From Salmonirosea aquatica (GTDB lineage Bacteria > Bacteroidota > Bacteroidia > Cytophagales > Spirosomataceae): a stretch of DNA of 64,000 bases. Under the pieces are notes generated by a model. The model was not told the DNA's origin. It saw only the letters and a program-made list of their open reading frames with translations, and did not search any database. The stretch is taken from NCBI RefSeq assembly GCF_009296315.1, contig NZ_WHLY01000002.1, positions 806,001 to 870,000 of the forward strand, read 5' to 3'. A program made the translations under genes and the position numbers. Positions 48,020 through 58,333 of this stretch are shown piece after piece (positions within the stretch are counted from its first letter, which is position 1; every line of letters starts with the position of its first letter).

Positions 48020-48526
48020 ATGCTACAACTTTTGTGGAGTGCGCTGAACGTCGCCCTGCTCATTTATTTTATCGTCCTTTGTTTCCGGGCCGCCAAACTC
48101 ATTCGGGAAAATTCGGGCTTGTTCGCTTCCATCCTTTTCGGGCTTGGTTTGCTGTCCTTCATGGGACAATCAGGAAAAGATAAAAATGCGAAAAATCAGG
48201 TCGTGAAGCAAGGTTTGACCTCGCAGGATAAAGCAGATCCAGCCTCGGTTCGTCATACTTACATAGACTTGGAAAAATCACTGGGAAACTCAATGGCCTT
48301 GTCCATACTATACGGAAAAGACAGCACCGGAAAGAGGGTACCCATTGACGCCCACTCAATCCGGAATGGGTTTGTCGGCGGGCTTGAATGGGTACCCCAT
48401 AGAATCCTCGTCAACACTACGGCCGATGGGAGTGATTTCAATTACACAGTCGACGGTATGCTGCAATGGAAGCTGCTGGGCGTAACGGTTTATCATCAGG
48501 CCAAAAAATTCAAAAAAGCAGAGTAG
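48020..48526 (+). CDS. Membrane-anchored protein of unknown function
   Basis: A 168-residue protein with two hydrophobic segments near the N-terminus (LWSALNVALLIYFIVLCF and FASILFGLGLLSFMG) followed by a soluble domain of about 110 residues that contains KSLGNSMALSILYG and NGFVGGLEWVPHRILVNT. I recognise no family. It lies 4 bp upstream of the cysteine desulfurase gene, so the two may be co-transcribed. Confidence 0.72.
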   Translation: MLQLLWSALNVALLIYFIVLCFRAAKLIRENSGLFASILFGLGLLSFMGQSGKDKNAKNQVVKQGLTSQDKADPASVRHTYIDLEKSLGNSMALSILYGKDSTGKRVPIDAHSIRNGFVGGLEWVPHRILVNTTADGSDFNYTVDGMLQWKLLGVTVYHQAKKFKKAE

Positions 48527-48530
48527 CTTC

Positions 48531-49676
48531 ATGGAATATAGCCGCCCCATCTACCTCGACTACAACGCCACCACCCCCGTAGACCCACGGGTACTGGATG
48601 CGATGCTCCCGTGGTTTACCGAACAATTCGGCAATGCCGCCAGCCGCACGCACCTCTACGGATGGGAAGCTGCCGACGCCGTAGCCCATGCCCGGCAACA
48701 GGTCGCCCGGCTGATCGGTGCCAGTGAAAAGGAAATTATCTTCACCAGCGGGGCTACGGAAGCCAACAATCTGGCATTGAAAGGTACCTTCGAAGCGCTC
48801 GGTGCGCAGAAGAACCACATCGTAACGGTAGCGACCGAGCACAAAGCCGTATTCGACACCTGCCAGCACCTTGAAGCCCTCGGGGCTGAAGTCACCTACC
48901 TCATGCCCGCCTCGGACGGTCTTATTACCCTGGAACAGCTTGAAAACGCACTTCGACCCGACACCTTGCTGGTATCGGTGATGTATGCCAACAACGAAAT
49001 CGGCGTAATCCAGCCCATCGCCGACATAGGAAGGCTGTGTCGGGAACGGGTCATAATTTTCCATACGGATGCTACGCAGGCGGTAGGGAAAATTCCGGTC
49101 GACGTAGCCAGGGACAACATCGACCTACTTAGTCTGTCGGCGCACAAGTTGTACGGCCCTAAGGGAATCGGCGCTTTGTATGTGCGCAAAGGCATTAAAC
49201 TCACCGCCCAACTGGATGGCGGCCGTCACGAGCGCGGACTGCGGTCGGGTACCCTGAATGTGCCGGGAATTGTGGGTTTGGGGAAAGCCTGTCAGCTGGC
49301 GGGTACTTCGATGCTGGAAGAAGAGAAACGGCTTTCGATACTCCGTGATAGACTGGAAAACGAAATTCTAAACGCAGTAATTGATACGCACGTCAATGGA
49401 AATCGTACCTACCGCCTACCCCAGACGACCAATATTTCCTTTGAGAATGTAGACGGAGAAGCCCTGTTGATGTCCTTCAACCGTATCGCCGTATCCAATG
49501 GGTCGGCCTGTACGTCGGCGCTGATAGAACCCTCGTACGTGTTAAAAGCCCTGGGGGTACCTGACGACCTCGCCCATGCCTCGGTGCGGTTTAGTTTGGG
49601 GCGTTTCACCCGCGAGGCGGACGTTGAAGAAACTATCGCCCACGTGCGGGATGTAGTGGAACGGCTGCGGAGGTAA
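48531..49676 (+). CDS. Cysteine desulfurase (NifS/IscS-like)
   Basis: A 381-residue PLP enzyme that takes sulfur from cysteine for Fe-S clusters or tRNA thiolation. It begins IYLDYNATTPVDPRVLDAML, binds PLP through the Lys in SLSAHKLYGPKGIGALYV and carries the catalytic Cys in NGSACTSALIEPSYVLKALG. This is a group I (IscS/NifS) layout. No scaffold or iscR gene is adjacent, so it may serve as the general sulfur donor. A 3-bp to 4-bp gap to the preceding membrane protein suggests an operon. Confidence 0.94.
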   Translation: MEYSRPIYLDYNATTPVDPRVLDAMLPWFTEQFGNAASRTHLYGWEAADAVAHARQQVARLIGASEKEIIFTSGATEANNLALKGTFEALGAQKNHIVTVATEHKAVFDTCQHLEALGAEVTYLMPASDGLITLEQLENALRPDTLLVSVMYANNEIGVIQPIADIGRLCRERVIIFHTDATQAVGKIPVDVARDNIDLLSLSAHKLYGPKGIGALYVRKGIKLTAQLDGGRHERGLRSGTLNVPGIVGLGKACQLAGTSMLEEEKRLSILRDRLENEILNAVIDTHVNGNRTYRLPQTTNISFENVDGEALLMSFNRIAVSNGSACTSALIEPSYVLKALGVPDDLAHASVRFSLGRFTREADVEETIAHVRDVVERLRR

Positions 49677-50548: not shown

Positions 50549-51532
50549 ATGAAAGCAAAGCAAACCCTCGACATATCACGGCACCTGGCTGTCCGAAAAT
50601 TGGATGATATGGTAGAAAACCGGACCGTTTACCCGCTGAAGATGGCTGAACTCAATATATACGAGACACACGCAGTTGCCGAAAAGGTGCAGCTGTCGTT
50701 CAGCAGTCCGGTGCTGGCCAGTATGATTCGGGGTAAGAAGATCATGCACCTTGAAAACACCCCGGCTTTTGATTTTTATCCCGGCGAGTCGGTGATGGTG
50801 CCCGGGCACAGCGCGATGCACATCGATTTTCCGGAAGCTACCCTCCAGAACCCTACCCAATGCCTGGCGTTAGCCCTGTCCGAAGAAAAAACCCATCAAT
50901 TGACCGATCAGTTGAATGACCGCTTTCCGCTGATCGATAGCACCGAGGGCTGGAAATTTACGCCCGACAATCTGTATTTTACCAACGAAGAAGCCATCAA
51001 TCAGCTGCTCAACCGCCTGATTTTCGTCTGCTCGGAAGGTAATTCAGCGCGGGACTACTTTGCGGAGCTTATCCTGCAAGAACTTACCATCCGGCTCATG
51101 CAGACTAAGGCGCGGCGCATTATGCTCAACGATCCGGCCGTATTTGCCAACCAGAATCGCCTGGCTTATGCCGTACAGTACCTGCGTGACCATCTGCACG
51201 AAAGCATATCCGTGGCTACCCTGGCTGAAAAAGCCTGCATGAGCGAACCAAATTTCTATCGTTGCTTCCGGCAGCAATTCGGATTTTCGCCCGTCGAGTT
51301 CATCAACCGCGAACGTATTCAATGGGGTACCCAGCTCCTGATCCACACGGATCGGACGATCACTGAAATAGCCACCGACTGCGGGTTCAACCACGTCAAC
51401 TACTTCACGAAATTATTCCGCCGCCAAACAGGTGCCACACCTACCGAATTCCGCGAGCGCCAGAAGACCCGGACCAACACCCAGTCGGCTTTGTGGGCTA
51501 CCTCCGAATCATGGCGAAACGGAGCTTTTTGA
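50549..51532 (+). CDS. AraC family transcriptional regulator
   Basis: A 327-residue regulator with an N-terminal AraC_N-type cupin domain (about residues 20-180, FDFYPGESVMVPGHSAMHIDFP) and a C-terminal double helix-turn-helix (about 205-305): the first in SVATLAEKACMSEPNFYRCFRQQFGFSPVEFI, the second in TITEIATDCGFNHVNYFTKLFRRQTGATPTEFR (helices only). It lies 144 bp upstream of the cox-like cluster on the same strand and probably controls it. The spacer between contains repeats of AGAAT/ATTCT. Confidence 0.92.
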   Translation: MKAKQTLDISRHLAVRKLDDMVENRTVYPLKMAELNIYETHAVAEKVQLSFSSPVLASMIRGKKIMHLENTPAFDFYPGESVMVPGHSAMHIDFPEATLQNPTQCLALALSEEKTHQLTDQLNDRFPLIDSTEGWKFTPDNLYFTNEEAINQLLNRLIFVCSEGNSARDYFAELILQELTIRLMQTKARRIMLNDPAVFANQNRLAYAVQYLRDHLHESISVATLAEKACMSEPNFYRCFRQQFGFSPVEFINRERIQWGTQLLIHTDRTITEIATDCGFNHVNYFTKLFRRQTGATPTEFRERQKTRTNTQSALWATSESWRNGAF

Positions 51533-51589
51533 GGCTATTTACTCCGTAGTATTTTTTCTTCTTCTCAGGTACCCTCTTTCTGATAGAAT

Positions 51590-51646
51590 CGTGTAGTAGA
51601 ATGAGGCAATCGTTCTAATGAATAGAATTATTCTTTTGTAAATTTG
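51590..51646 (+). promoter_or_regulatory. Candidate operator and -7 box before the cox-like cluster
   Basis: TAAATTTG (51639-51646) matches TAnnTTTG and lies 30 bp before the coxG start. Upstream, the pentamer AGAAT or its complement ATTCT/GTTCT recurs several times between about 51584 and 51634, partly as the inverted pair TTCTA/TAGAA. This would suit binding by an AraC-type dimer, such as the protein encoded just upstream. Confidence 0.42.
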
Positions 51647-51676
51647 AACTGTTTCAATTTTCAAAAATTCTGAACG

Positions 51677-52120
51677 ATGGATTTATCCGGCTCCCACATC
51701 CTCAATGCCACGCCCGATCGGGTGTGGGCCATGCTCATGGATACCGACGTGCTGGCGCGAATCGTACCCGGTGTCACAACTTTGGAAAAAACGGGTGAAA
51801 ACGAATACAAAGCCATTGCCCAGGTTAAAATGGGGCCCGTCAATGGTTCGTTTTCGGGTGGCCTGACCATGCAGGACATTCGTGAGGGCGAGGGCTACAC
51901 ACTGAATGTGAAGCAAAGCAGCAAAATCGGCAACGCCGACGCCACCGTCAAAATTGATCTGAAATCCGTTGACGACGACAAGACTGAACTGGTTTTCGAT
52001 GGCGGGGCCAAGCTATCGGGCCTGCTGGCCCGCACCGGCAACCGCGTCATGAGTGGAGTCGCAAACTCACTGACCAAGCAATTTTTTGAAAATTTCGAAC
52101 AAGAAATTTCAAGCAGTTGA
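51677..52120 (+). CDS. CoxG-like SRPBCC protein
   Basis: A 147-residue protein of the CO dehydrogenase subunit G family (START/SRPBCC fold). It shows the standard N-terminus MDLSGSHILNATPDRVWAMLMD, then IVPGVTTLEKTGENEYKAIAQVKMGPV and FDGGAKLSGLLARTGNRVM. In aerobic CO dehydrogenase systems CoxG anchors or recruits the enzyme to the membrane; here a membrane segment is absent. It opens the cox-like operon. Confidence 0.9.
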   Translation: MDLSGSHILNATPDRVWAMLMDTDVLARIVPGVTTLEKTGENEYKAIAQVKMGPVNGSFSGGLTMQDIREGEGYTLNVKQSSKIGNADATVKIDLKSVDDDKTELVFDGGAKLSGLLARTGNRVMSGVANSLTKQFFENFEQEISSS

Positions 52121-52252
52121 CAATGGACAGTTGACAAAACTCACATCGACTTCGGCTTTGAGCATTTCACATCCGGTAGCTTTTGACCTTGTGCCTTTGT
52201 AGCTCTGTGCCTTTGTTCCTAAAAACATTTACTAACCCTTAACCCAAAAAAC

Positions 52253-52735
52253 ATGACCCAAATCACCGTAAAAGTCAATGGCAAAGTACACTCCCACGAG
52301 GTAGAACCCCGGACGCTCCTGGCTCACTACCTGCGCGAGCAACTGAGCCTGACGGGTACCCACATCGGCTGCGATACCAGCAGCTGCGGTTCCTGTACCA
52401 TCCATATGGACGGCATGGCCGTCAAATCCTGCTCCATCCTGGCCGTTCAAGCCGACGGCTGCGAAATCACTACCATCGAAGGCCTCGCCACCGACGGGCA
52501 ACTACACCCTGTGCAGGCGGGCTTCAAGGAATGCCACGGGTTGCAGTGCGGCTTTTGTACCACGGGCATGATCATGACCGCCGTGGACTTGCTGAATCAA
52601 AATCCCGACCCCACCGAATCAGACATTCGTCATGGCCTGGAAGGCAACTTCTGCCGTTGCACGGGGTACCATAACATTGTGCGAAGCGTGCAATGGGCCG
52701 CAGAAGCAATGAAGAAAGAGATCATGGTAGAGTGA
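52253..52735 (+). CDS. Small iron-sulfur subunit of a molybdenum hydroxylase (CoxS-like)
   Basis: A 160-residue protein with two [2Fe-2S] clusters. The plant-ferredoxin cluster is seen in [16 protein letters not shown] and a following Cys in VKSCSILA; the second, helical cluster in [15 protein letters not shown] and [14 protein letters not shown]. All eight Cys are present. It passes electrons from the molybdenum centre of the large subunit to the FAD subunit. Upstream neighbour is coxG, downstream the large subunit. Confidence 0.96.
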
Positions 52736-52877
52736 TAGGGTTTTGAATAATAGAATCCTAATCTATTCCATGACTTGACCTCATAAGATCAAGTACTCTA
52801 TACCAGTGTACCTGTACCCTGAATCATTTATTCTCTCATCGCACCGGCCACCCGGTCACTCATCCAAAAGCAAACCC

Positions 52878-55265
52878 ATGAGCAATACTAAATACATCGG
52901 CCAATCCGTGAAGCGGGTCGAGGACAAGCGCTTCATTACCGGAAAAGGCCGCTATACCGATGATATCAAACTAGTAGGCATGACCTACGCGGCCTTTGTG
53001 CGCAGCCCCTACGCCCACGCCAAAGTACTGAGCATCGAAAGTGCAGAAGCACTAGAAATGCCTGGCGTCGTAGCCATCTTCACCGGCGACGATATCAAGG
53101 CCTCGGGCATCGGGGGGGTACCTACCGGCTGGGTTATTAATTTCAGAAATGGCGACACCATGAAGGAACCACCTCATCCGCTGCTGATCGCCACGAGCAG
53201 TACCGCCAAGCACATCGGCGATCCGGTGGCGGTAGTCATAGCCGAGACGTACGCTCAAGCAGTAGACGCTGCGGAGGCCGTGGTAGTGGACTGGGAAGAC
53301 CTCCCCGCCGTGACCGACGCCTTCAAAGCCACGCAGGATGGGGCCACGCTCGTTCACGACAGTGCGCCCGGCAACCTGGCTTTCGACTGGGAATTGGGCA
53401 ATCCGATCAGTGAAGTGGATGCCGCTATTGAGGCCTCAGCCCACGTCACGACGCTGGATTTCATCAATCAGCGCATGGTTCCCAACGCTATCGAGCCGCG
53501 TTCCTACATCGGACACTACGACGAAGCGACCGACAAGTATACGCTCTACACCTCTACCCAGAATCCGCACCTGATCCGGTTGCTGATGTGCGCTTTCGTG
53601 CTGGGTATCCCCGAACACAAAGTGCGCGTGCTGGGCCCGGATGTAGGCGGTGGCTTTGGTTCCAAAATTTTCCATTATACCGAAGAAGCGCTCGTCACCT
53701 GGGCTTCACAAAAAATCAAACGCCCCATCAAGTGGACCGAAACGCGCTCCGAGGCCTTTATGCTCGATGCCCACGGCCGCGACCACGTCAGCAAAGCCGA
53801 AATGGGCTTCGATGCCGAGGGTAACGTCACGGCGCTGCGCATCAAGACTTACGCTAATCTTGGCGCGTACTTATCCACGTTTGGCCCGGTGGTACCTACC
53901 TTCCTGCATGGTACCCTGTTGCAGGGACTCTACACGACCCCAAAAATTCACATCGAGTTGTACGGCGTGTTTACGCATACCGTGGCTGTGGACGCCTACC
54001 GGGGTGCCGGTCGGCCCGAGGCTACCTACCTGCTGGAACGCCTGATGGACCTGGCCGCGCTGGAAATGGGCAAAGACCCCGTAGAATTGCGCAAACGCAA
54101 TTTCATCCCCGCCTTTGATGGCGTGGAACAGCCGGGCTATCAAACCCAGGTGGCCCTGCAATACGATTCGGGCAACTACCACGGTGTGCTGGAGCGGGCC
54201 GTAGAAATGCTGGATTACGGGAATTTCCGGAAAGAACAAAAGGAAGCCGCCCAGAATGGCAAGCTACTGGGCGTGGGTTTTTCAACTTATATCGAAGCCT
54301 GCGGCATCGCTCCTTCGGCGGTGGTGGGGGCACTGGGCGCGCGGGCCGGCCTGTACGAATCGGCGCAGGTACGGGTGCAGCCTACGGGCAAGGTAAGCGT
54401 TTTCTCGGGTTCGCATTCGCACGGTCAAGGCCACGAAACGACTTTTGCCCAAATCGTTGCTGACAAATTCGGGATTCCGATGGAGGACGTGGACATTGTG
54501 CACGGCGACTCCGACGCCGTAGCCTTCGGCATGGGCACCTACGGTTCGCGGAGTTTGGCGGTAGGGGGTTCGGCTATCGTCAAAAGCATTGATAAGGTAC
54601 TGGAAAAGGGTGCGAAAATCGCTGCGCACAAACTAGAATGCGCTGCCGACGATCTGGAATTCGCCGAAGGAAAATGGACAGTGAAAGGTACCGATCAATC
54701 CATCAGTTTCGGCGACGTCGCCCTGACCGCCTACATCCCGCACGTGTACCCCGAAGGGCTCGAGCCGGGCATGGATTTCTCGAGCTTCTACGATCCGGCC
54801 AATTTCACCTACCCCTTCGGCTGCCACATTGCCGTGGTGGAGGTGGACAAAGAAACCGGCAAGGTCAGGCTCAGGCGCTTCATCGCCGTGGATGACGTAG
54901 GCAATGTCATCAATCCTATGATCGTGGATGGACAAATTCACGGCGGGCTGGCGCAGGGCATCGGACAGGCGTTGCTGGAAGGCGCTATTTACGACGAAAA
55001 CGGACAGCTGACCAACGGCTCCTACATGGATTACGCCATGCCCCGCGCCGACGACCTGCCCATGTTCGAAGTGGATCGGCAGATAACGCCTTGTCCACAT
55101 AATCCATTGGGTGTAAAAGGCGCCGGTGAAGCGGGATGCATCGGCTCCACACCCGCCGTCGTCAACGCCGTGATCGACGCCCTGTGGAGCGGCGGCTATC
55201 AGGTCAAGGACATCGCCATGCCCCTAACCGGTGAGCGCGTGTGGCGGGCCATGCAAAACAATTGA
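52878..55265 (+). CDS. Molybdopterin-binding large subunit, form II CoxL-like
   Basis: A 795-residue molybdenum-binding subunit of the xanthine oxidase family. The start at 52878 gives MSNTKYIGQSVKRVEDKRFITGKGRYTDD; the longer frame is rejected. The active-site signature is AYRGAGR (about residues 373-379, bases 53994-54014), which is the form II signature. True CO dehydrogenase (form I) has AYRCSFR with the Cys that carries the Cu-Mo centre. The catalytic Glu is present in GVKGAGEAGCIG near the C-terminus. Substrate is therefore unknown: an aldehyde, a purine or another heterocycle is more likely than CO. Confidence 0.93.
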   Translation: MSNTKYIGQSVKRVEDKRFITGKGRYTDDIKLVGMTYAAFVRSPYAHAKVLSIESAEALEMPGVVAIFTGDDIKASGIGGVPTGWVINFRNGDTMKEPPHPLLIATSSTAKHIGDPVAVVIAETYAQAVDAAEAVVVDWEDLPAVTDAFKATQDGATLVHDSAPGNLAFDWELGNPISEVDAAIEASAHVTTLDFINQRMVPNAIEPRSYIGHYDEATDKYTLYTSTQNPHLIRLLMCAFVLGIPEHKVRVLGPDVGGGFGSKIFHYTEEALVTWASQKIKRPIKWTETRSEAFMLDAHGRDHVSKAEMGFDAEGNVTALRIKTYANLGAYLSTFGPVVPTFLHGTLLQGLYTTPKIHIELYGVFTHTVAVDAYRGAGRPEATYLLERLMDLAALEMGKDPVELRKRNFIPAFDGVEQPGYQTQVALQYDSGNYHGVLERAVEMLDYGNFRKEQKEAAQNGKLLGVGFSTYIEACGIAPSAVVGALGARAGLYESAQVRVQPTGKVSVFSGSHSHGQGHETTFAQIVADKFGIPMEDVDIVHGDSDAVAFGMGTYGSRSLAVGGSAIVKSIDKVLEKGAKIAAHKLECAADDLEFAEGKWTVKGTDQSISFGDVALTAYIPHVYPEGLEPGMDFSSFYDPANFTYPFGCHIAVVEVDKETGKVRLRRFIAVDDVGNVINPMIVDGQIHGGLAQGIGQALLEGAIYDENGQLTNGSYMDYAMPRADDLPMFEVDRQITPCPHNPLGVKGAGEAGCIGSTPAVVNAVIDALWSGGYQVKDIAMPLTGERVWRAMQNN

Positions 55266-55306
55266 AAATGGAAAATTGAAAGTTTAAAATTGAAAATGAA
55301 CTACTT

Positions 55307-56131
55307 ATGATCTCATATCCCTTTGAATATAGCCGGCCCGATACCATCGAGGAGGCCCTGGACCAACTGGGCGACAACGTCAAGCTCCTGGCGGGCGGCC
55401 ATAGCCTGATCCCAGCCCTCAAACTCCGCCTGAGTGCGCCCGACAAACTCGTAGACATTGCCCGGATTCCGGCTTTGAAAGAAATTAAAGTGGAAGATGG
55501 CGAAGTCGTCATCGGCGGCGCGGCCACCCACCGCGAAATCATGGACTCGGAAATTATCCAAGAGCACCTGCCCATGCTGTCCAAAGGTGCCGCCGCGGTG
55601 GGCGATCCCATGATTCGGTACAAGGGTACCATGGGGGGTAGCCTGGCCCACGCCGATCCGTCGGCCGACTGGCCCGCGATGATTCTGGCGGCGGGCTGCA
55701 CCATTGTGGTACGGAACAAAACCGGCGAACGGCGCATTGGGGGCGACGACTTTTTCACGGGCTTTTACTCCACCGCGCTGGAAGACGGCGACATCCTGAC
55801 CCAAATCCGTTTTCCCATTCCGGCGGAAGGTACCCGCATGACCTACCAGAAATTCACCCAACCCGCCTCCCGCTTTGCCATTGTGGGCTGCGCCGCCGCG
55901 CGCCTGCCCGACGGCTCGGCGCGCGTGGCCTTTACGGGCGTAGCCGATGCCCCCTTCCGCGACCATACCGTGGAAGCAGCCATCACGGACTGGTCGGAAG
56001 GTACCCTCGAGGCCGCCGCGGCCCAGGCCGCCGAAGGCCAAAACATCAACGCCGACCATTACGCCTCAGAAGAGTACCGCCTGCATTTGGCGCGGGTGTA
56101 TTGCAAGCGAGCGTTGATGGCCTTGGTATGA
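55307..56131 (+). CDS. FAD subunit of a molybdenum hydroxylase (CoxM-like)
   Basis: A 274-residue FAD-binding subunit. Two FAD loops are seen: LLAGGHSLIPALKLRLSAP (about residues 30-48) and TMGGSLAHADPSADWPAMILA (about 108-128). It closes the L-M-S hydroxylase trio and would pass electrons to the quinone pool. The gene lies 41 bp after the large subunit and 110 bp before the MoxR gene. Confidence 0.95.
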   Translation: MISYPFEYSRPDTIEEALDQLGDNVKLLAGGHSLIPALKLRLSAPDKLVDIARIPALKEIKVEDGEVVIGGAATHREIMDSEIIQEHLPMLSKGAAAVGDPMIRYKGTMGGSLAHADPSADWPAMILAAGCTIVVRNKTGERRIGGDDFFTGFYSTALEDGDILTQIRFPIPAEGTRMTYQKFTQPASRFAIVGCAAARLPDGSARVAFTGVADAPFRDHTVEAAITDWSEGTLEAAAAQAAEGQNINADHYASEEYRLHLARVYCKRALMALV

Positions 56132-56241
56132 TTTTGGGTAGAAAGGTGAATGGTAAAAGGTCAAGCGGCGTCCTGTGCCTTTTCTAAAAACGTCCTTAAC
56201 CGTTTACCTTTAACCGTTTAACCCCTTACTCCACGCTAAAA

Positions 56242-57147
56242 TTGATCCCCGATCTTCCCCACATCGCCGACTTACTGAAAACGCAGGGCTACATCACGGA
56301 GCCCGCGGTAACGATGGCGGTGTACCTATCGATGCAATTGCAAAAACCCCTGCTGATCGAAGGACCGGCGGGGGTTGGTAAAACCGAGATTGCCAAGGTG
56401 ATGGCCCGGGCACTGGATACCGACCTCATCCGGTTGCAGTGCTACGAGGGCCTCGATGCCTCCCACGCGCTATACGAGTGGAACTACCAGCGGCAGTTGC
56501 TGCACCTCAAAATGCTGGAAACACGGCAAGGTACTCCCGGCGCGGTGGATGCTTTGGAGGAAGAGATTTTCGGAGAGAAGTTCCTGATGAAGCGGCCCCT
56601 GCTGCAAGCGATCACGCACCACAAATCCCCGGTCCTGCTGATCGACGAGGTAGACCGCGCCGATGAGGAATTCGAGAGTTTTTTACTGGAAGTACTTTCC
56701 GACTGGCAGATTACGATTCCCGAAATAGGTACCATCCGGGCCACGCACATTCCGCAGGTGATTGTGACGGGCAACCGCGTGCGGGAATTGTCGGAGGCGT
56801 TGCGCCGCCGATGCTTGTACCTCTGGATCGACTATCCCGACTACGAGAAGGAATTGGCGATCGTGCGGGGCAAGGTACCTCAGATTTCAGCGCAACTAGC
56901 CGAACAAATCTGCCGCTTCATGCAGGAACTCCGCCAACTGCGCTTGGAAAAAACGCCCGGCATCGCCGAAACTCTCGACTGGGCTACCGCCCTCTCCACG
57001 CTGCATTTCGATCACCTGCCCCAGGAAATCATCGAACAAACCCTGGGCGTCATCCTGAAAGATTGGAAAGACACCCGCACCGCCCAGTTGTCGCTGAGTG
57101 AGTTGTATGAAAAAATGGGAGTAGTGTCGAAGATTGAGGAGTTGTAA
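56242..57147 (+). CDS. MoxR-type AAA+ ATPase (CoxD-like)
   Basis: A 301-residue AAA+ ATPase beginning at a TTG codon (56242). Walker A is GPAGVGKTEIAK, Walker B is VLLIDEVDRADEEFESFL, and the sensor and Arg-finger region is GNRVRELSEALRRRCLYLW. CoxD is required to build the metal centre of CO dehydrogenase in Oligotropha; here it is paired with a VWA protein next in line, the usual chaperone couple. The non-ATG start is inferred from the family N-terminus IPDLPHIADLLKTQGYI. Confidence 0.9.
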   Translation: MIPDLPHIADLLKTQGYITEPAVTMAVYLSMQLQKPLLIEGPAGVGKTEIAKVMARALDTDLIRLQCYEGLDASHALYEWNYQRQLLHLKMLETRQGTPGAVDALEEEIFGEKFLMKRPLLQAITHHKSPVLLIDEVDRADEEFESFLLEVLSDWQITIPEIGTIRATHIPQVIVTGNRVRELSEALRRRCLYLWIDYPDYEKELAIVRGKVPQISAQLAEQICRFMQELRQLRLEKTPGIAETLDWATALSTLHFDHLPQEIIEQTLGVILKDWKDTRTAQLSLSELYEKMGVVSKIEEL

Positions 57148-57202
57148 GGAGGCAAGACTAAGTCTGGAAATATTCACTCAACCACTCATTCAAAATTCAC
57201 AA

Positions 57203-58333
57203 TTGATTCAGCGCCACACTGACCTCGTCGCCAACGTCGTAGCCTTCTGCCGCTACCTCCGCGCCTACGGTTTCCGCATTGGGCCGGAGGAAGAGGCCAC
57301 GGCCCTGCGGGCGGCGGCGCTGGTCACGCTGAACGACCGGGGTACCTTTGCGCTGGCGTTGCAGGTGAGCCTGACGCGCTCGGTGCAGGAAGTGGCGGAG
57401 TTTAAGGTACTTTTTGAGAGATACTGGCGGGAATTGGAAAATGCGCTGGACAGCAAGATCAAGGACGACGAAAGCCAACGATCGAAGTACCAGAAAAATA
57501 CGCAACCGTCTTTCAACGCCCTGAAATCGTGGCTGAACGGTAACCGCAACACCGAAGAAACCGAAACAGCCACCTACTCCCCGACCGAATCGCTGAGCCA
57601 CCAGGATTTTTCGCTCATCCCCGCCGACCAACTCGCCGACCTCGAACGGTTACTGCGCGAAGTATCGCTGGCGCTGGCGCGAAAAGTGAACCGCCGCCGG
57701 GAAAAAACCCTGCACGCCAAAGCGTTTGATTTGCGGGGTACCCTGCGCCGCAACCTCCGCCGGGGTGGCGAACTCATAGACCTGGCCTACAAGCGCCCCC
57801 GCCGCAACCGGATGCGGCTCGTGGTGCTGGCTGACGTGAGTAAGTCGATGGATTTGTACAGCGCGTTTTTGATTCAATTCCTCTACGCTTTCCAGAACGT
57901 GTTCCGGCGCATCGAAACATTCGTGTTCAGTACCGACCTGCACCGCGTCACGGCGGAATTGAAGCAGCAGAATTTTCAGGAAGCCCTCAAAAAACTGGCC
58001 GAAAGCGAAACGGGCTGGTCGGGGGGTACCCGCATCGGGGGGAGCCTGCACACCTTCGTAACCGACTACGGCAAGCTACTCAACCGCGAAACCATCGTCG
58101 TGATTTTGAGCGATGGCTGGGACACCGATGACACCCGTGACACGGGTACCTTGGCTGAGACTATGCAGCGCATTCAGCAAAAATCCCGTAAGGTCATCTG
58201 GCTCAATCCTCTGGCCGGGCGAGCCGGTTACGAACCCCGAACCGCCGCCATGCAGGCGGCTCTACCCCATGTGGATGTGTTTGCCCCGGCGCATAACGTA
58301 GAGAGCATGCGGGCGTTGGGAAAGTGGTTGTGA
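57203..58333 (+). CDS. VWA-domain protein (CoxE-like)
   Basis: About 376 residues from a TTG at 57203 (LIQRHTDLVANVVAFCRYLRAYGF); a frame open to 57134 includes low-complexity sequence and overlaps the previous gene, so it is not chosen. The von Willebrand A domain occupies about residues 205-376 with the MIDAS motif DVSKSMDLYS and the second metal residues in WSGGTRIGGSLHTF and LSDGWDTDD. CoxE works with the MoxR ATPase in maturation of the molybdenum enzyme. It ends the operon and converges with the GH43 gene, 15 bp apart. Confidence 0.88.
   Translation: MIQRHTDLVANVVAFCRYLRAYGFRIGPEEEATALRAAALVTLNDRGTFALALQVSLTRSVQEVAEFKVLFERYWRELENALDSKIKDDESQRSKYQKNTQPSFNALKSWLNGNRNTEETETATYSPTESLSHQDFSLIPADQLADLERLLREVSLALARKVNRRREKTLHAKAFDLRGTLRRNLRRGGELIDLAYKRPRRNRMRLVVLADVSKSMDLYSAFLIQFLYAFQNVFRRIETFVFSTDLHRVTAELKQQNFQEALKKLAESETGWSGGTRIGGSLHTFVTDYGKLLNRETIVVILSDGWDTDDTRDTGTLAETMQRIQQKSRKVIWLNPLAGRAGYEPRTAAMQAALPHVDVFAPAHNVESMRALGKWL

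Follow-up and report, generated by a model that had tools for sequence, protein, structure and literature searches.

We analyzed a 64 kb stretch (the window) of the 7.07 Mb genome of Salmonirosea aquatica, in which positions 50549-58333 carry a cluster of cox genes related to those of aerobic carbon monoxide (CO) dehydrogenase. The order coxG-S-L-M-D-E behind a gene for an AraC-family regulator, including the MoxR/VWA pair coxD and coxE, had been proposed in a first-pass annotation and holds throughout: every gene is present on the + strand as an open reading frame (ORF), and each is supported by Pfam matches. The regulator (50549-51532) combines the sensing domain PF06719 with a helix-turn-helix (HTH) domain. 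It is followed by coxG (51677-52120; PF06240, 2.2e-25), by coxS for a subunit with two [2Fe-2S] clusters (52253-52735; PF01799, PF00111), by coxL for the molybdenum (Mo) subunit (52878-55265; PF20256, PF02738, PF01315) and by coxM for the flavin adenine dinucleotide (FAD) subunit (55307-56131; PF00941 at 5.2e-47, PF03450). CoxD (56242-57147) is an AAA+ ATPase that matches AAA models and owes the label "MoxR" to the annotation of its homologues, and CoxE (57134-58333) is a VWA protein with a DxSxS motif that matches VWA_CoxE (PF05762, 1.5e-58). The ORF list begins coxL at a GTG at 52806, and the ATG at 52878 agrees better with orthologues; the true start of coxE may lie near 57200.

The annotation had also called the cluster complete and a copy of an aerobic CO dehydrogenase cluster. 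The named genes are all intact, but the CoxF/CoxI chaperones are missing: no XdhC, CoxF or CoxI gene was found next to the cluster, and the only clear XdhC of the host genome in a PF13478 search sits 2.6 Mb away. The subunit genes, moreover, are arranged S-L-M, which is the order of form II clusters and not the M-S-L order of form I (PMC13203968). With this order, and without CoxF/CoxI at the locus, the cluster is not quite a copy of that of a CO dehydrogenase.

Form II identity of the large subunit

At its active site, CoxL reads DAYRGAGRPE (residues 372-381) where form I has VAYRCSFR, so that the annotated AYRGAGR in place of AYRCSFR is correct and the copper-holding cysteine is replaced by Gly376. 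In alignments, form I has one extra residue on each side of the motif. Because the loop length differs both before and after it, we are dealing with a different loop and not with a single Cys-to-Gly change. I264, A373 and R375-E381 are kept in all 33 form II rows of the alignment, with glycine at the cysteine position in 33/33. E751, the conserved Glu, and Q228 are likewise kept among form II rows; by homology, we take both to be catalytic. Tyr374 is nearly invariant, and three loci (L044, L097 and L101) fail the motif pattern even when Tyr or Phe is allowed.

A tree of the large subunit, a check that the annotation had proposed, places it in form II, as claimed. Among the 74 rows of this quick search, which has mid-range rows on long branches and does not include the archaeal glyceraldehyde oxidoreductases, form I makes up one clade (Shimodaira-Hasegawa-like approximate likelihood ratio test [SH-aLRT] support 100) and form II another (99). 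The window CoxL belongs to the latter, within a Bacteroidota subclade that includes one SAR324 row; three mid-range plasmid proteins (L164-L166) also fall inside the form II clade. The substrate of this kind of enzyme is unsettled in print, where CO is considered a probable non-substrate or the role is left unresolved (PMC6794299, PMC13240472, PMC13203968), and the annotated statement that the substrate is open is thus both supported and previously published.

The window CoxL scores 639 bits against the form I model TIGR02416, short of the cut-off of 991, and four form I proteins score 1205-1620. By Pfam and alignment it has the hallmarks of the xanthine oxidase family, namely Mo-binding domains, E751, a two-cluster Fe-S partner and a FAD partner. 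An AlphaFold model of CoxL (mean predicted local distance difference test score 84.4) matches the Mo/Cu CO dehydrogenase 1n60 with Z 47.2 and 2.3 Å over 757 residues at 34% identity, and many other structures of the superfamily match nearly as well.

We counted as form II orthologues all CoxL matches above 1100 bits, a split of the matches that is our own. By this measure, and with the host included in both samples, an orthologue is present in 29 of the 121 genomes sampled from the host family and in 12 of the 395 sampled from the host phylum. Loci were compared by tblastn in a set of 132: 29 form II loci of the host family, 18 form II loci from other Bacteroidota, 10 loci of form I and 75 others. 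Proteobacterial form II CoxSLM (Azospirillum lipoferum AZO_p3, Ruegeria sp. AD91A) resembles that of the window in its CoxL sequence (58-61% identity), the motif DAYRGAGRPE and the order S-L-M, and among the 75 loci from outside the Bacteroidota, D, E, G and XdhC lie nearby in 47, 44, 41 and 37, respectively. The window differs from these in belonging to the Bacteroidota subclade and in two features seen, among the 132 loci, in the host family only: the AraC gene and the close linkage of a cysteine desulfurase gene. Form I Mo/Cu CO dehydrogenases (Oligotropha/Afipia carboxidovorans OM5, Thermomicrobium roseum) share the subunit architecture and fold, and OM5 has homologues of CoxD, CoxE and CoxG, as the window does. 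However, identity to form I is 36-41%, the window lacks the cysteine and has another loop, and form I has the M-S-L order and a CoxF-type chaperone. The cluster is an ordinary member of the known and widespread form II (BMS-type) kind.

Both a form I-like and a form II CoxL are encoded in eight sampled genomes (G007, G457, G522, G041, G046, G088, G096 and G216), and G013 and G336 have a form I CoxL only. VAYRCSFR is present in all seven form I loci fetched from this group of genomes (L032, L034, L159-L163). A second CoxL-like paralogue, with an ORF of ~960-970 aa and 37-39% identity, occurs at L024/L033 (G016:C1) and also in G467, G489, G522 and G528; the L033 copy has no recognizable AYRxxxR motif.

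Maturation proteins that accompany form II

In O. carboxidovorans, sulfuration of Mo needs CoxD, and copper needs CoxE together with CoxF (PMC4240915). If CoxE serves copper in this way, an enzyme without copper should not need it. CoxE was found in 14/14 tested form II genomes of the host family, 12 of which have no CoxE in the fetched locus, and in 0/20 family genomes in which neither form gave a match, of which 17 are at least 90% complete. It is also present in G013, the single tested genome with form I only. Within one genus, form II CoxL is present in 11 of 13 genomes and CoxE in the same 11, and G506 and G526 are without both. Eight of these 13 genomes overlap the family test; in deduplicated totals, CoxE is found in 17/17 distinct form II genomes and in 0/22 with neither form. 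CoxD gives the same picture (11/11 form II genomes, 0/20 with neither form, present in G013). The genomes are related, so that these counts are not independent, and the CoxE/form II split recurs within genera g2 and g40 and, with CoxE read from loci, within g19 and g208. CoxE thus accompanies form II CoxL even where the genes are unlinked. In the genus of the 13 genomes they are widely separated, as shown by G453 with coxL at C12:683929, coxE at C12:881976 and coxD at C12:242908. Accessory cox genes located elsewhere in form II genomes are described for SAR202 as well (PMC11411561). In G481, the CoxE match (C22:229557-230674) falls into two pieces, the second with stops, reflecting a frameshift or an assembly fault.

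A CoxF-type chaperone, by comparison, is lacking in both the locus and the host genome. Genes of the compared loci were located by tblastn and codon-scored ORFs, and the XdhC tree leaves out rows of 180 aa or less, with form I loci L159 and L163, which were badly called, giving no row. In this tree, a branch of support 99 divides eight CoxF-type proteins, the OM5 protein among them and every one encoded in a form I locus, from 51 XdhC proteins that belong to form II loci; three further XdhC proteins of form I loci fall on the form II side. The host XdhC groups with the form II side, outside the CoxF group. A second, weak XdhC match in the host genome reads as a 2-hydroxyacid dehydrogenase, and a MocA-like protein scores 154.8 bits, below the cut-off of 186. 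When OM5 CoxF is used as a tblastn query, 7/29 family loci and 22/75 others also match at 60 bits or more; because of the XdhC tree, we read these matches as cross-hits to XdhC.

We tentatively propose, with somewhat less than even confidence, that CoxD and CoxE work together as a MoxR-VWA machine which, in form I and form II alike, sulfurates the Mo cofactor or inserts it, with CoxE needed by the copper-less clade and CoxF alone being a copper-specific addition of form I. The direction of evolution under this proposal would run from form II, as an older aldehyde-type enzyme, to CO oxidation by gain of the cysteine and of CoxF. Our literature search found no study that tests CoxD and CoxE against form II across genomes, and a search for mutant fitness data found nothing. 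This analysis adds three findings: CoxD and CoxE co-occur with an enzyme that has no copper, CoxF is split from XdhC, and the AraC site described below is conserved. The first of these is relevant to the assembly of the Mo/Cu site in CO dehydrogenase, and the genus with unlinked genes and the relatives with both forms are natural systems for testing substrate and maturation.

Probable sulfur supply and a conserved candidate regulatory site

Ahead of the regulator on the + strand lies a gene for a NifS/IscS-like cysteine desulfurase, so named by its sequence (48531-49676). The protein is a probable sulfur donor for the Mo cofactor by analogy with Rhodobacter capsulatus, in which a pair of XdhC and NifS4 sulfurates the cofactor (PMC2997495). 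Orthologues (62-79% identity) scoring at least 300 bits occur in the fetched stretches of 13/29 family form II loci, and at this threshold in 0/10 form I, 0/18 other Bacteroidota form II and 0/75 other loci. Four of the 29 family stretches are short (L027, L137, L148 and L149), so that locus counts are lower bounds. Two of the other Bacteroidota form II loci (L150 and L151) have a distant desulfurase (23%). Maturation genes among the locus neighbors include those for XdhC and cysteine desulfurase and, by reading of the sequences, for MoeA, MoaA and a MobA-like fusion. Directly before the desulfurase gene of the window, 48020-48526 is a 168-aa ORF with no Pfam match at 0.001.

AraC orthologues (54-83% identity) are found in 16/29 family loci. 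In the window, the gap between the regulator gene and coxG contains a candidate AraC operator (51581-51613, + strand), composed of TGATAGAATCGT (51581-51592) and an imperfect copy, GAGGCAATCGT (51603-51613), with a period of 21 bp. The half-site TGATAGRATNGT occurs once in each of the 16 AraC-bearing family loci and in 3/13 family loci that lack AraC, against an expectation of 0.015 per 64 kb strand from first-order Markov shuffles; because 13 of the 16 AraC loci served to define it, the comparison is non-circular only for L145-L147 and the loci without AraC. Two loci, L145 and L146, have the site between a divergent AraC gene and a series of genes for the desulfurase, XdhC and CoxG, S, L, M, D and E, in that order, so that sulfur supply and enzyme look like a single regulated unit in these two. 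The -7 box of Bacteroidota promoters has the consensus TAnnTTTG, and a candidate for it, TAAATTTG, is found at 51639-51646 on the + strand. This box starts 54 bp after the AGAAT of the half-site in the window, and 54-55 bp after it in loci where both were read; half-site and box at the set distance are present in 10/29 family loci.

The PF06719 domain of the regulator is also found in YqhC, an aldehyde-responsive activator (PMC6115493). In 8/29 family loci, all of one genus (L134-L136, L140-L143 and L148), a gene named by its sequence as that of a TonB-dependent receptor stands divergently beside AraC; the receptor could import the substrate.

Candidate substrates

We judge the chances to be about even that the cluster makes a form II CoxSLM that is a copper-free sulfido-Mo hydroxylase of the xanthine oxidase family, acting most likely on an organic aldehyde. 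The Mo of such an enzyme would carry a sulfido ligand. An XdhC (CoxI-type) chaperone would receive the sulfur of this ligand from the linked desulfurase and pass it on to the Mo cofactor, and sulfuration or insertion would presumably fall to the CoxD ATPase and the VWA protein CoxE. The operon would be turned on by an AraC activator bound to the repeat before coxG, and the enzyme, possibly tethered to the membrane, would oxidize an organic aldehyde to its acid.

We favor an aldehyde because of the pocket, the PF06719 domain in common with YqhC (a weak pointer) and pyrroloquinoline quinone (PQQ)-dependent alcohol dehydrogenase genes near 4/75 non-Bacteroidota loci in tblastn (5/90 by neighbor clustering). 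The loci concerned are L012, L013, L083 and L118, from Roseobacteraceae and Comamonadaceae, and three of them have pedF; PQQ alcohol dehydrogenase and pedF together are hints of an alcohol-aldehyde-acid route. In the pocket, I264 aligns with I219 of the Sulfolobus tokodaii glyceraldehyde oxidoreductase (4zoh), and A373 and A377 with S330 and A334. This enzyme, GAOR2, agrees with the window CoxL (37% identity) in YRGAGRPE, in an Ile at the position of the xanthine dehydrogenase (XDH) Glu and in an Ala at the aromatic-clamp position; no aromatic clamp like that of D. gigas aldehyde oxidoreductase is found at A377. By alignment start coordinates, and if no gap intervenes, the counterparts of I264 are E232 in R. 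capsulatus XDH and E803 in human xanthine oxidoreductase, residues known as Glu from the titles of structures 2w55 and 2e1q. With Ile in place of the purine-binding Glu, purines are unlikely. A xanthine or other purine dehydrogenase would fit the common superfamily and fold, but the XdhA models, with cut-offs of 780 and 916 bits, score CoxL at 412 and 398, and we consider this identity highly improbable.

Several observations weigh against the aldehyde oxidase that we favor and its proposed sulfur route. Residues D292, D293, N297 and S330 of the glyceraldehyde oxidoreductase correspond to P337, V338, F342 and A373 in CoxL, and with these polar pocket residues replaced, glyceraldehyde itself is also doubtful. 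The glyceraldehyde dehydrogenase models NF041018-20 all stay below their cut-offs (692/790, 269/350 and 242/290 bits); NF041018 is the best of poor fits and gives 660 bits to a true form I CoxL. No conserved catabolic neighbor was recognized in the Bacteroidota loci, where clusters were read by eye with Pfam run on some, and PQQ alcohol dehydrogenase is found in 0/47 of them. In 16/29 family loci the stretch that was fetched lacks the desulfurase, and the XdhC tree has long branches. The regulator aligns with YqhC in the HTH only, at 28% over 90 aa. Growth of Kyrpidia on CO is reported with a form II cluster only, one that lies outside the BMS clade (PMC7248562), and coxF is reported together with form II in SAR202 (PMC11411561).

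Two candidate identifications were rejected: the regulator as an orthologue of YqhC, and glyceraldehyde dehydrogenase as named by the best NCBIfam model, which is no evidence when the same model scores four form I CoxL proteins at 558-660 bits. A survey of 90 loci and the Bacteroidota loci for hints of the substrate returned maturation genes and no recognized catabolic partner, so that gene context does not fix the substrate.

A serious rival, though a less likely one in our estimate, is that an N-heterocycle such as pyridine, quinoline or a similar ring is hydroxylated instead of an aldehyde. Quinoline 2-oxidoreductase (1t3q; 34% identity, 761 aligned residues) and 6-hydroxypseudooxynicotine dehydrogenase (7dqx; 30%, 741) are close solved relatives from the same Mo hydroxylase family, 7dqx is the best match over residues 253-400, and CoxL has a less polar pocket than the glyceraldehyde oxidoreductase. 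However, the two enzymes have the motifs AYRGVGF and AYRAPGR, respectively, and the tree puts quinoline 2-oxidoreductase on a long branch that is not part of form II. With I264 in the pocket, recognition of the purine type is lost, and no ring-cleavage or hydroxylase genes were recognized as conserved beside the Bacteroidota loci.

The first-pass annotation had also held CO to be an unlikely substrate. This view is supported by the missing cysteine and by the published doubts, and is contested by the Kyrpidia report and by form II-only isolates cited as oxidizing CO (PMC5747140). The enzyme might accordingly be a low-affinity CO dehydrogenase, or hold copper in another way, with the retained CoxD/CoxE pair as the sign of it. 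That pair does accompany form II in every tested genome, its CoxE acts with CoxF in copper insertion in O. carboxidovorans, and CO use by SAR202 has been argued from the presence of coxD, coxE and coxF (PMC11411561). Yet all form II rows have Gly for Cys, none of the 51 XdhC rows of form II loci is a CoxF-type chaperone, the TIGR02416 score is far from its cut-off, and a form I-like CoxL exists separately in some Bacteroidota. Isolates with form II alone, moreover, often show no CO consumption in the account of PMC13203968. We therefore regard CO oxidation by this enzyme as improbable, well behind an N-heterocycle. The matter extends beyond this cluster, in that cox genes of form II occur widely and can be taken for those of CO oxidizers in surveys (PMC13203968), though their substrate is unsettled.

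The G+C content is 55-59% across positions 52001-58000 of the window and ~51% in the surroundings. Despite this rise, the orthologues of the cluster in the family suggest that it is not a recent arrival. The host genome also encodes six more large subunits of the xanthine oxidase family, at positions 96394, 3998093, 5482880, 3323884, 4703757 and 3101594 of contig C2, with 23-39% identity in matched pieces.

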